Source: Sideroxyarcus emersonii
GTDB taxonomy: Bacteria; Pseudomonadota; Gammaproteobacteria; Burkholderiales; Gallionellaceae
NCBI RefSeq assembly: GCF_021654335.1
Contig: NZ_AP023423.1
Location: 1,797,001 to 1,861,000 of the forward strand
Length of the DNA: 64,000 bases
Direction of reading: 5' to 3'
Within the stretch, counting starts at the first letter, position 1, and each line of letters begins with the position of its first letter. The notes beneath the pieces are model-generated. The model was not told the DNA's origin. It made no database searches and worked only from the letters and a program-made list of their open reading frames with translations. Positions 10,038 to 14,241 of this stretch are shown here, in pieces. A program made the translations under genes and the position numbers.

Positions 10038-10189
10038 GTCAGTCACCTTGCAGGCAACCTCCCGCCAGGTAGCGCTACCGTCGCAGACACACCGCAACCG
10101 CGTGCAGCCACGCATACCCCGCCCAGCGCAGCCGTGCTATCCTGCTTTCGACCGCATCAAGCGTCACTCGAACAAAAGGGTTGGCCGCC

Positions 10190-12703
10190 GTGCATATCAC
10201 CCACTATCTTCCCCGTACCCTCCCCGAGCCGCTGGCAGGGCTGACCACCCTTGCACTCGACCTGCGCTGGAGCTGGCACCACAGCACCGACACCTTGTGG
10301 CAAGCCGTCTCCCCCGAACTCTGGGAAGAGACCCGGAATCCGTGGCTGATACTCGAAAACATTTCCGACCGGCGGCTGGAAGAGCTGGCAGCAGATGCCG
10401 GCTTCGTCGAGACGCTGCAGCGCCAGCTGGAGGCACGGGAAGGACACTTCAAGAGCGACACCTGGTTTGCTTCGCAGTTCGGACAGGCATTCAGGGGATA
10501 TGTGGCCTACTTCAGCATGGAGTTCGGGCTCAGCGAATCGCTGCCGATCTACTCGGGCGGATTGGGCATACTGGCAGGCGACCACCTGAAGACCGCCTGC
10601 GATCTGGGCGTGCCCCTGATCGGCATCGGTTTGCTGTATCAACAGGGGTACTTCCGTCAGGCGCTGGATGCGCAAGGCGAACAGATCGAGTTCTATCCCT
10701 ATAACGCGCCCACCATGTTGCCGGTGACCCCGCTCATGGATGACCGCGGCGAATGGGTACGGGTAAACGTGGAGTTTCCGGGACGGCAGTTGATCCTGCG
10801 TGTGTGGCACGTCGAGGTTGGCCGGCGTTCGCTGTTCCTGCTCGACAGCAACGAACCGCTGAACTTCCCGGGCGACCGCGGGATCACCAGCGAGCTGTAT
10901 GGCGGCGGCCAGGAAATGCGTTTACAACAGGAAATCGTGCTCGGCATCGGCGGCTGGCGCCTGCTGGAAAAAATGGGCATCGATTGCCCGGTGTGCCACC
11001 TCAACGAAGGGCATGCGGCTTTCGCGATCCTGGAACGCGCCCGCAACTTCATGCATCGCTGCGCGCAGCCATTCGAGGTGGCGCTGCGTGCCACGCGCGC
11101 TGGCAACCTGTTCACCTCGCACACGCCGGTGGAAGCCGGGGCCGACCGCTTCCCTCCCGACCTCTTCATGCATTACTTCCGGGATTACGCGAAACTGCTC
11201 GGAATCGACGAGCAACGGTTGCTGGCGCTTGGCCGCGACGGTGTCCGGAGCGATCGCGGCGAGCCGTTCAACATGGCCTATCTGGCCTTCCGCGGCGCAG
11301 GGGCGGTGAACGGCGTAAGCCGCCTGCACGGCAAAGTGAGCAGGGACATCTTTCAGCCGCTGTTCCCGCGCTGGCCTGCAGCGGAAGTGCCGGTCGGCCA
11401 TGTCACCAATGGCGTGCATGTGGCAACCTGGGACTCCCAGGCCGCGGATGCATTGTGGACCGATGCTTGCGGCAAGACACGCTGGCTGGGCACGCTGGAA
11501 ACCGTCGCAACCGACCTGCGTTGCCTGGATGATCGCACGTTGTGGGATTTCCGCTGCCGCGGCCGCCGGGGACTGGTCGACTTCCTGCGCACCCGCCTGG
11601 CGCGGCAGAACAGGTGGCTGAATACCACACAGGCGCAGGATCAATCCCTGGATCCCGGTTTCCTGACCCTGGGATTCGCACGCCGGTTCACCGAATACAA
11701 GCGCAACAACCTGCTGCTGCACGATCCCGACCGCCTGACCCGCTTGCTGACCAACCGCGACAGGCCGGTGCAACTGGTCATTGCAGGCAAGGCACACCCG
11801 TATGACGATTTCGGCAAACGCATGATACGCCAATGGAACGATTATCTGCGCCGGCCAGAACTGCAAGGAAGGGTCATCTTCGTGGAAGACTATGACCTGG
11901 TCATCGCTGCCGAGCTGGTGCGCGGTGTGGACGTCTGGATCAACACACCGCGCCGCCCCTGGGAAGCCAGCGGTACCAGCGGCATGAAAGTGCTGGCCAA
12001 CGGCGGGCTCAACTTGTCCGAACTGGACGGCTGGTGGGCCGAGGCCTACCGGCCCGAAGTGGGCTGGGCGATAGGCGACAGACAGGAACACCGCAACATT
12101 GCCGAGTGGGATGCAGCCGAGGCGGAACAGCTCTATCGCCTGCTGGAAGAAAAGGTCGTTCCCTGCTTCTACCGGCGCGACGAGAACGGATTGCCGCGCG
12201 AGTGGGTGCAGCACATGCAAGAAAGCATGGCACAACTGACCACGCATTTCTCCAGCAACCGCATGGTGCGGGAATACACGGAACGTTTCTATGTCCCGCT
12301 GGAAAACGCCTGCCGGCAGCGCATGGACGACGGATGCAAACTTGCCGCCGAACTCGAAGCCTGGCATGCACACCTGCGGCGGTACTGGGATAAGCTGTAT
12401 TTCGGCAACGTCAGCGCAGAAAAATGCAACGAAGGCTATCGCTTCCAGGTCCAGGCCTACCTGGACGGCATCCCGGCCGAAGCGGTATGCATCGAACTCT
12501 ATGCCGAGGCCGCGAACGGCGGCGAAGCGGTGCGTCAGGTGTTGACCCGGACGACGCCGCTGCTGGGGGCGGACAACGGCTATCTGTATACCGGCACGGT
12601 CAAGGACGACCGCCATGCCGCGGCATACACCCCGCGCATCGTGCCGGCGCATGCCGCAGCCACGGTGCCGCTGGAGGCATCCATGATCAGCTGGTACAGG
12701 TGA
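10190..12703 (+). CDS. glgP: alpha-glucan phosphorylase (GT35, DUF3417 type)
   Basis: PLP enzyme that phosphorolyses glycogen or maltodextrin to glucose-1-phosphate; about 837 aa. The N-terminal DUF3417 block (LDLRWSWHHSTDTLW) marks the Thermotoga-like branch rather than the E. coli MalP/GlgP branch. Further evidence is VAYFSMEFGLSESLPIYSGGLG, CHLNEGHAAF, HVTNGVH and the PLP-lysine motif EASGTSGMKVLANGG. GTG at 10190 is chosen because AAAAGGG sits about 9 bases upstream; a TTG at 10181 abuts that site. The next gene begins 29 bases later on the same strand and is probably co-transcribed, which is an odd pairing (see findings). Confidence 0.93.
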   Translation: MHITHYLPRTLPEPLAGLTTLALDLRWSWHHSTDTLWQAVSPELWEETRNPWLILENISDRRLEELAADAGFVETLQRQLEAREGHFKSDTWFASQFGQAFRGYVAYFSMEFGLSESLPIYSGGLGILAGDHLKTACDLGVPLIGIGLLYQQGYFRQALDAQGEQIEFYPYNAPTMLPVTPLMDDRGEWVRVNVEFPGRQLILRVWHVEVGRRSLFLLDSNEPLNFPGDRGITSELYGGGQEMRLQQEIVLGIGGWRLLEKMGIDCPVCHLNEGHAAFAILERARNFMHRCAQPFEVALRATRAGNLFTSHTPVEAGADRFPPDLFMHYFRDYAKLLGIDEQRLLALGRDGVRSDRGEPFNMAYLAFRGAGAVNGVSRLHGKVSRDIFQPLFPRWPAAEVPVGHVTNGVHVATWDSQAADALWTDACGKTRWLGTLETVATDLRCLDDRTLWDFRCRGRRGLVDFLRTRLARQNRWLNTTQAQDQSLDPGFLTLGFARRFTEYKRNNLLLHDPDRLTRLLTNRDRPVQLVIAGKAHPYDDFGKRMIRQWNDYLRRPELQGRVIFVEDYDLVIAAELVRGVDVWINTPRRPWEASGTSGMKVLANGGLNLSELDGWWAEAYRPEVGWAIGDRQEHRNIAEWDAAEAEQLYRLLEEKVVPCFYRRDENGLPREWVQHMQESMAQLTTHFSSNRMVREYTERFYVPLENACRQRMDDGCKLAAELEAWHAHLRRYWDKLYFGNVSAEKCNEGYRFQVQAYLDGIPAEAVCIELYAEAANGGEAVRQVLTRTTPLLGADNGYLYTGTVKDDRHAAAYTPRIVPAHAAATVPLEASMISWYR

Positions 12704-12732
12704 CAACAGCCGTGCCGCCCGAAGGACCCCGC

Positions 12733-14241
12733 ATGCCGCACCTACCCAATATGCTCAGCCTGTCCAGGGCTGCGCGCCTGGTGGGGGTGGACCGGATCGA
12801 CCTGCAGAGGAAGATCCAGCAAGGTGCGCTCCATGCCTTCGACGGCATGGTTGACATCGAAGAACTGGTGCGCGCCTATCCCGATGTCCAGCTGGAAGAT
12901 AATACCGAATACAACCGCCTGCTGCAGATCAAGGAGAAGGCGTTCGGCAAGCGCGTGCTGGAACGGATCCTGCCCAGCGCCGAGATACTGGCGGCTCGGA
13001 TCGCCGAACTCGGCAAGGAGCTGGCGCATCATCAGGCACAGGCGACGCAATTCGGACGCATACTGGAACAGTTGAACGATCGATTGAATGTTGTTTGCAG
13101 GGAAGCGGAAGGCGGCATGAAGGCCGCCCTGATTGACCTGCAATCCTGGCTTGAAACGGAGGTAACAACCACCATGGCATCCGAACCCATCAATCCCTTG
13201 ACGGTGCGCGACCATCTGCTGCGCGTGATGGCAGCTCATGTCACCGTGATGCCCAGCGGGCACGACTTCTTCATCGAGGGAGCAGATACGCTGCTGGAAA
13301 GCGCATTGCGCGCCGGCGTGCCGCTCGATTACGGCTGCAGCGGCGGCAATTGCGGCTTATGCAAGGCCAGGATCCTCTCCGGCCAGGTCAAGAAAACCCG
13401 CCACCACGATTATGTGCTGACCGAAGCCGAGAAGAACCAGGGCTACGTCCTGATGTGCTCGAACACCGCGGTGACCGACCTGGAGATCGCAGCGCACGTT
13501 GCAGGCAGCGTGCAGGACATCCCGTTCCAGCAGATCGCCGCCAAGGTCAAGTCGATCGCATCGATCAGCCCCGACATGGCATTGCTGCATTTGCAAACGC
13601 CCCGCACCAGCCGGCTGCGCTTCCTCGCCGGCCAGTATGTGACGCTCCGGCTGGGACAATCGCTGACTGCGCAACTGCCGATAGCAAGCTGCCCCTGCGA
13701 CGAACGCAATATCCTGTTCCATGTCCGCCGCATGCACGGCAACCTCTTTTCCGATTATGTCTTCGACCGCCTGAGCAACAACGAAACGGTCGACATCGAA
13801 GGCCCGGATGGCGAATTCGTACTGCAGGAACAGACCCGTCGCCCGCTTTATTTCGTGGCCTTCAACCACGGCTTCGCTCCCATCAAGAGCCTGATCGAGC
13901 ACGCCATGTCGCTCAACAAGGCCGAATCCATCGATTTGTTCTGGATCGGCTCCCACGACAGCGACATCTACCTGCCCAACATCCCGCGCGCCTGGTCGGA
14001 TGCGCTGGATAATTTCCACTATGCAACACTGACAGCCGGCTACGACCTGTCGCACCTCACCGCACTGCGGGAAGCATCGTTGCTCACCCTGCTGGAAGGG
14101 ATACTGCAGCGGCATCCCGAACTGACGGAAGGGGATGTCTACATTGCCGGACCGGAATCCGCCGGCAGACTCGCCGAACAGCTCTTCCTCGATGCCGGCC
14201 TGCCGAGGACGCGCGTGTTCATGACACATCGCAACCTTTGA
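12733..14241 (+). CDS. HTH/coiled-coil-ferredoxin-FAD/NAD reductase fusion protein
   Basis: A 502-aa multidomain protein. Residues 8-50 look like a MerR/excisionase-type helix-turn-helix (LSLSRAARLVGVDR then a short beta wing and DIEELVRAYPD). Residues 60-125 are a charged, probably coiled-coil helix. Residues 168-250 are a plant-type 2Fe-2S ferredoxin with C202, C207, C210 and C242 (CSGGNCGLC and MCSN). Residues 260-500 are an FNR-like flavin/NAD reductase (FLAGQYVTLRLG for FAD; GPESAGRLAEQLF at the C-terminus). The C-terminal half matches CDP-6-deoxyglucoseen reductase or oxygenase-reductase types. The electron acceptor is unknown. It follows the glucan phosphorylase by 29 bases. Confidence 0.8.
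   Translation: MPHLPNMLSLSRAARLVGVDRIDLQRKIQQGALHAFDGMVDIEELVRAYPDVQLEDNTEYNRLLQIKEKAFGKRVLERILPSAEILAARIAELGKELAHHQAQATQFGRILEQLNDRLNVVCREAEGGMKAALIDLQSWLETEVTTTMASEPINPLTVRDHLLRVMAAHVTVMPSGHDFFIEGADTLLESALRAGVPLDYGCSGGNCGLCKARILSGQVKKTRHHDYVLTEAEKNQGYVLMCSNTAVTDLEIAAHVAGSVQDIPFQQIAAKVKSIASISPDMALLHLQTPRTSRLRFLAGQYVTLRLGQSLTAQLPIASCPCDERNILFHVRRMHGNLFSDYVFDRLSNNETVDIEGPDGEFVLQEQTRRPLYFVAFNHGFAPIKSLIEHAMSLNKAESIDLFWIGSHDSDIYLPNIPRAWSDALDNFHYATLTAGYDLSHLTALREASLLTLLEGILQRHPELTEGDVYIAGPESAGRLAEQLFLDAGLPRTRVFMTHRNL

Follow-up and report, generated by a model that had tools for sequence, protein, structure and literature searches.

What would a protein do that has the fold of a DNA-binding domain at one end and that of a reductase at the other? 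The question is raised by a gene at 12733-14241 on the + strand of the window (the whole 64,000-nucleotide stretch of the Sideroxyarcus emersonii genome analysed here), which encodes 502 amino acids arranged as a helix-turn-helix (HTH), a coil, a [2Fe-2S] domain and an FNR-like module, and which lies beside a glycogen-breakdown gene. The original prediction had offered two answers, a redox-sensing transcription factor or a tethered electron donor, and both remain as the two leading explanations after the comparisons described below, which tie the protein to the Dsr pathway of sulfur oxidation.

Architecture of the fusion protein

The open reading frame is preceded by a Shine-Dalgarno sequence, GAAGGA, at 12721-12726, and has full-length homologues in dozens of loci, which rules out a chance or chimeric frame or an assembly artefact. 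AlphaFold, supplied with an alignment of 59 homologues, modelled the whole protein with a mean pLDDT of 84.6 and a pTM of 0.68, and Pfam recognised Fer2 at residues 172-243 (1.2e-12) and FAD_binding_6 at residues 270-362 (2.7e-9), with NAD_binding_1 at residues 380-475 falling below the cut-off (8.7e-4). The joining of an HTH and coiled coil to a ferredoxin-FAD/NAD reductase, as first read from the letters, is a real architecture by Pfam, AlphaFold and the homologues alike, and, to judge from the sequences, the fusion is an old, conserved family. Mean pairwise identity within this family is highest in the Fer2 domain (66%), intermediate in the HTH (59%) and the FAD domain (54%), and lowest in the coil (38%).

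Structurally, the N-terminal unit spans residues 7-51 (12751-12885, + strand), where AlphaFold places a strand at 7-9, helices at 10-17 and 21-30, a strand at 39-41 and a helix at 42-48, i.e., the order strand-helix-turn-helix-wing-helix; folded alone, the N-terminus took nearly the same structure as in the whole protein. In VIA-align, whose rows we took as fold evidence only, residues 5-51 superposed on the Pukovnik Xis with a Z of 7.4 (1.5 A, 47 aligned residues) and on BldC with a Z of 7.2; SoxR rows reached 5.5, and most of the remaining rows were MerR-type or other DNA-binding proteins, with one row being CbpM, a chaperone modulator. Foldseek, run on this small HTH domain, gave weak E-values (best 0.17) and also had CbpM among its structural matches. 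Family scans of the 52 members of the N-terminal alignment, at E <= 0.1, matched rep_pAB02_ORF2 in 40/52, Fis HTH_8 in 29/52, HTH_17 in 25/52 and excisionase TIGR01764 in 24/52, and, among these four, the window's own copy matches rep_pAB02_ORF2 only. Across the 59 homologues, residues 9-31 are basic (net charge +3 to +7) and column counts find R21 and Q25 invariant, features that would be consistent with specific DNA binding; the wing and third helix are acidic, with a mean charge of -3.2. The HTH fold that had been proposed within residues 1-150 is borne out by the models of the whole protein and of the N-terminus alone, by VIA-align and by the family scans, and we accept residues 7-51, by predicted fold, as a MerR/Xis/BldC-type winged HTH in which DNA binding is putative. 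Behind it, modelled helices at 58-79, 83-124 and 128-148 lead to the reductase, and the stretch 58-148 (12904-13176, + strand) is a probable dimerising coiled coil.

Functionally, the reductase module is a mixture of kept and altered parts. The plant-type [2Fe-2S] ferredoxin domain (13246-13461, + strand) has the ligands Cys202, Cys207, Cys210 and Cys242 in 59/59 homologues. Within the FAD_binding_6 fold (13540-13818, + strand), alignment to the benzoate dioxygenase reductase and relatives finds the arginine of the flavin motif RxYS/T absent at the aligned position, 313, in all 59; just after this former motif stands a Cys-Pro-Cys (CPC; residues 320-322, 13690-13698, + strand) that is invariant in 59/59 and is found in HTH-less relatives too. 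The NAD-binding-like domain (residues 380-475) occupies 13870-14157 on the + strand, and column counts show the nucleotide motifs changed as well: in GGxGxxP the first glycine is mostly F or W and the second is present in 5/59, and the cysteine of the CGP motif is alanine in 48/59 and retained in 7/59. For comparison, an ordinary paralogue of the same genome (L002, 34% identical) keeps the flavin motif as RSFS, and an arginine stands at the flavin position (RSKS) in one of the HTH-less relatives, L196. Judged by these alignments, the reductase is degenerate, with the flavin arginine and nucleotide glycines lost and the cluster cysteines all kept, and since both the flavin and the nucleotide motifs are affected, a normal NADH reductase is unlikely.

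Co-occurrence with dsrA

When 300 genomes of the order were searched with the N-terminal part, 52 carried the HTH-coil; 64/300 had a strong match to dsrA (pieces included, E < 1e-40), with 61 of these over the curated cut-off. All 52 fusion carriers had dsrA, and the 236 genomes with no dsrA match of this strength all had no fusion (Fisher p 4e-47, kinship ignored). Among the genomes listed, seven families hold both members with the two genes and members with neither, so that kinship alone does not explain the association; three of the seven also hold one genome each that has dsrA only. Within the order, 12 of the 64 dsrA genomes had no fusion; DsrL was present in all 12, and 4 of them carried a form of the protein without the HTH. 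We also considered aprA as a better predictor than dsrA, and rejected it because it was present in only 45/52 carriers, and because the 13 genomes with aprA and without dsrA all had no fusion.

Beyond the order, the N-terminal search matched 7 of 398 genomes in a phylum sample, one match being an unrelated protein (in genome G337) that we rejected as a family member, as it is a protein in its own right, 193 aa long and encoded next to a VgrG-like gene. An independent gammaproteobacterial order had the fusion in 6/150 genomes and dsrA in 20/150, with an overlap of 4. The remaining two carriers have aprA and two DsrL matches each, so dsrA is probably missing from their assemblies. Conversely, 16 of the 20 dsrA genomes of this order had no fusion, which is therefore not a universal part of Dsr. 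A further copy, in a record named as a Halobacteria archaeon (L106), is nested among gammaproteobacterial ones and probably sits on a mis-binned contig.

Genomic context and the glgP neighbour

Neighbourhood gene calls were made with a home-made GC-position score that can be wrong and left the fusion gene uncalled in 8/96 loci; in the 88 loci where it was called, the immediate upstream gene was cysG in 17. The fusion gene and dsrA shared a contig in 18 genomes and lay within 15.2 kb of each other in 10/18, in several arrangements. In two loci (L120, L121) the gene sits at the dsr operon's end, downstream of cysG and in the slot before a DUF302-like gene; in three (L117, L118, L119) it is divergent from dsrA, and in two more (L124, L125) it occupies the operon's far end, close to a kinase/regulator pair. 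In these last two, as well as in L085 (4010-7008) and L206, a NarL-type histidine kinase/response regulator pair lies next to the fusion gene or one gene further on. The locus L115 has a second copy of dsrL that lies apart from the dsr operon and follows the fusion gene at a distance of about 115 bp (L115 6373-10051). Two DsrL matches were also seen in genomes G689, G729 and G763. The recurrent partners of the fusion gene are dsr genes, cysG and, once, dsrL.

In the window, the upstream neighbour is an alpha-glucan phosphorylase gene (glgP; 10181-12703, + strand; TIGR02094), the stop of which ends 29 bases before the fusion gene on the same strand. The original prediction had taken this pairing to suggest redox control of storage-carbon use. 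A survey of 80 loci, 68 of them with 3.4 kb or more of sequence upstream of the match, gave different answers for the fusion and for its neighbour: the fusion is conserved across dozens of loci, but GlgP adjoins it in 1/80, the 90%-identical sister L034 (L101 has a partial match, 26%, some 2.9 kb off on the opposite strand). The window's genome has its dsrA 325,917 bases from the fusion gene, and at the end of its dsr operon (L116) no gene occupies the slot that separates cysG from the DUF302-like gene. Evolutionarily, the window copy groups with L035 and with two loci named Rhodocyclaceae and Dechloromonas (support 100/96). Because of the empty slot and this grouping, the copy beside glgP has likely been relocated or imported. 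The idea that glgP couples redox state to glycogen/maltodextrin use can draw on the 29-bp spacing, the shared strand and the recurrence of glgP next to the gene in the sister locus; with that adjacency so rare and the partners elsewhere being dsr genes, it is a very improbable account, and we place glgP outside the system.

Forms without the HTH

Among the 28 dsrA genomes without the fusion that were searched, five (G241, G078, G145, G266, G716) carry a module of the CPC type that lacks the HTH-coil, and the first survey had yielded one further such form (L085), a count for which weaker matches in other genomes were only partly checked. In one of them (G241; L194) the first HTH residues are still recognisable and the rest is missing, which looks, from the alignment, like an internal deletion of the HTH. 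The six forms need at least five changes on the tree, three of which are forced by starred branches, and the HTH was repeatedly lost with the redox module retained. In two of the six cases (L085, and L206 of G241) the HTH-less gene adjoins a NarL-type kinase and regulator. That the module survives without the HTH speaks for electron transfer or for a protein with both functions.

Search for an operator

If the HTH bound DNA, a site might be expected before the gene itself or before dsrA. Upstream of the fusion gene, 104 non-redundant sequences (of 126) gave no convincing conserved dyad, and the best words were G+C-rich, occurring in 17/104 against a shuffle maximum of 11. Before dsrA, a palindrome, ACCTACCC-N4-GGGTAGGT, stands about 90-290 bases upstream in most genomes and near 297-320 in the locus of the window's genome (L136). 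Its ACCC-N4-GGGT core is present in 20/46 dsrA upstreams versus 0.5 expected, and it is specific to this location, with 925 kb of the other loci giving 0 matches at score 15. We tried this palindrome as the operator of the fusion protein and rejected it, as it is present where the fusion is absent (at score >= 10 in 8 of the 12 dsrA genomes without the fusion) and is not found upstream of the fusion gene, where 126 sequences held no match at strong score and one weak match.

The palindrome has features of its own. As RNA it would form an 8-bp stem with a four-base loop. Divergently upstream of dsrA (L136, L116-L188) lie a DUF6967 gene, in 49/73 loci, and a Cas6-family gene, in 52/73 loci by tblastn and with PF09559 in 3/3 scanned, and a DsrC paralogue often follows them; one would not expect a Cas6-type RNA endonuclease next to genes of sulfur oxidation. 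Across 65 loci, 42 had both the palindrome at score >= 10 and the Cas6-like gene, 9 the Cas6-like gene only, 3 the motif only and 11 neither (Fisher p 4e-5, kinship ignored). The palindrome may serve as a site for a regulator or as a substrate of the Cas6-like protein, and the NarL-type kinase/regulator pair is a candidate for its owner.

Proposed role

Since the gene follows dsrA and dsrL, stands within or next to dsr operons in several lineages, and keeps both its cluster ligands and a basic HTH, we tentatively read the protein as a redox-sensing accessory to oxidative (reverse) Dsr sulfur oxidation in beta- and gammaproteobacteria, acting on DNA via its HTH, a reading to which we give somewhat less than an even chance. 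Mechanistically, electrons or reduced sulfur from the Dsr chain, arriving via DsrL, NADH or the CPC thiols, would set the state of the [2Fe-2S] module; the coiled coil would relay this state to an HTH dimer, and the dimer would then tune sulfur-oxidation genes by a SoxR-like logic. In the HTH-less forms, the module would still sense or carry electrons. Several observations stand against a regulator: no operator is tied to the protein, the wing side is acidic, the HTH is repeatedly lost, CbpM, which is related in fold but does not bind DNA, is among the structural matches, and the fusion is missing from 12/64 dsrA genomes in the order and from 16/20 in the gammaproteobacterial one.

Because the HTH has repeatedly been lost and the module kept, the conserved core may be electron transfer, and electron transfer beside DsrL is a close rival of the regulator. 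Here the protein would be an electron-transfer part of oxidative Dsr, e.g., a partner of DsrL or rDsrAB, with the HTH and coil serving to dimerise or dock in the manner of CbpM. The dsrL copy just downstream in L115, the retention of CPC in HTH-less forms that arose more than once (one with an HTH remnant, L194), the reductase-like fold and the rank of Fer2 as the best conserved domain all speak for this role; the degenerate flavin and nucleotide motifs, which make a normal NADH reductase unlikely, speak against it, and the invariant R21 and Q25 and strongly basic helices are not readily explained by docking alone, so that we consider it possible while leaning towards doubt. In a third model, akin to PutA, one bifunctional protein would carry electrons for Dsr and would also bind DNA, repressing or activating dsr-related genes by redox state; such a protein would accommodate the conserved HTH, the module kept without it, and the linkage to dsr structural genes and regulators, but no operator was found in the upstreams searched and both of its activities are putative, which leaves it an improbable compromise. 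Returning to the redox-sensing regulator, we posit, as a rather unlikely but specific form of it, that the protein is the missing redox regulator of reverse Dsr: a ferredoxin-reductase scaffold whose flavin site would have been rebuilt as a Cys-Pro-Cys switch, which would sense electron or persulfide pressure and would signal by the HTH or, where the HTH is lost, by the neighbouring two-component system.

Comparison with known systems

To our knowledge, the control of dsr genes in sulfur oxidisers is poorly understood, and a conserved candidate that combines a redox module with a domain of DNA-binding type opens that control to direct test, with the repeated natural loss of the HTH supplying built-in controls. 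While each part of the protein is known, neither the fusion as a whole nor its link to Dsr turned up in the literature searched, which comprised a search by title and abstract start plus passages of PMC11406059, PMC7596348 and PMC10734462, none of which described the fusion. The 2024 Dsr-evolution study (PMC11406059) names further dsr genes (dsrR, dsrS and dsrT), and its consulted passages do not name the fusion gene, which is never without dsrA in the order tested, though absent from the dsr genes named in those passages. DsrL, which the consulted passages of PMC7596348 describe as the NAD(P)H:acceptor oxidoreductase partner of rDsrAB, is like the fusion an iron-sulfur oxidoreductase of the Dsr pathway, but has a different fold and [4Fe-4S] clusters.

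By sequence and fold, the best solved relatives are reductases of the BenC, GcoB and T4moF type, which share the order of Fer2, FAD-binding and NAD-binding domains; unlike them, the fusion has an N-terminal HTH and coil and the CPC, has no flavin arginine (59/59), and has altered GGxG and CGP motifs. The HTH itself is closest to excisionase/BldC-type and plasmid replication proteins, in fold (Xis, BldC) and in sequence family (rep_pAB02_ORF2); these bind DNA and carry no redox module. In SoxR and other regulators of the MerR family, too, long helices come after a winged HTH, and SoxR likewise uses a [2Fe-2S] cluster, which sits in a short C-terminal motif, whereas the cluster ligands of the fusion lie in a plant-type Pfam Fer2 domain inside a reductase scaffold, and the upstreams searched yielded no operator. 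PutA, a flavoenzyme with its own DNA-binding domain, offers a parallel to the bifunctional design in that it too joins a redox enzyme scaffold to a DNA-binding domain, and its domains, a ribbon-helix-helix and a proline dehydrogenase, are unrelated to those of the fusion.
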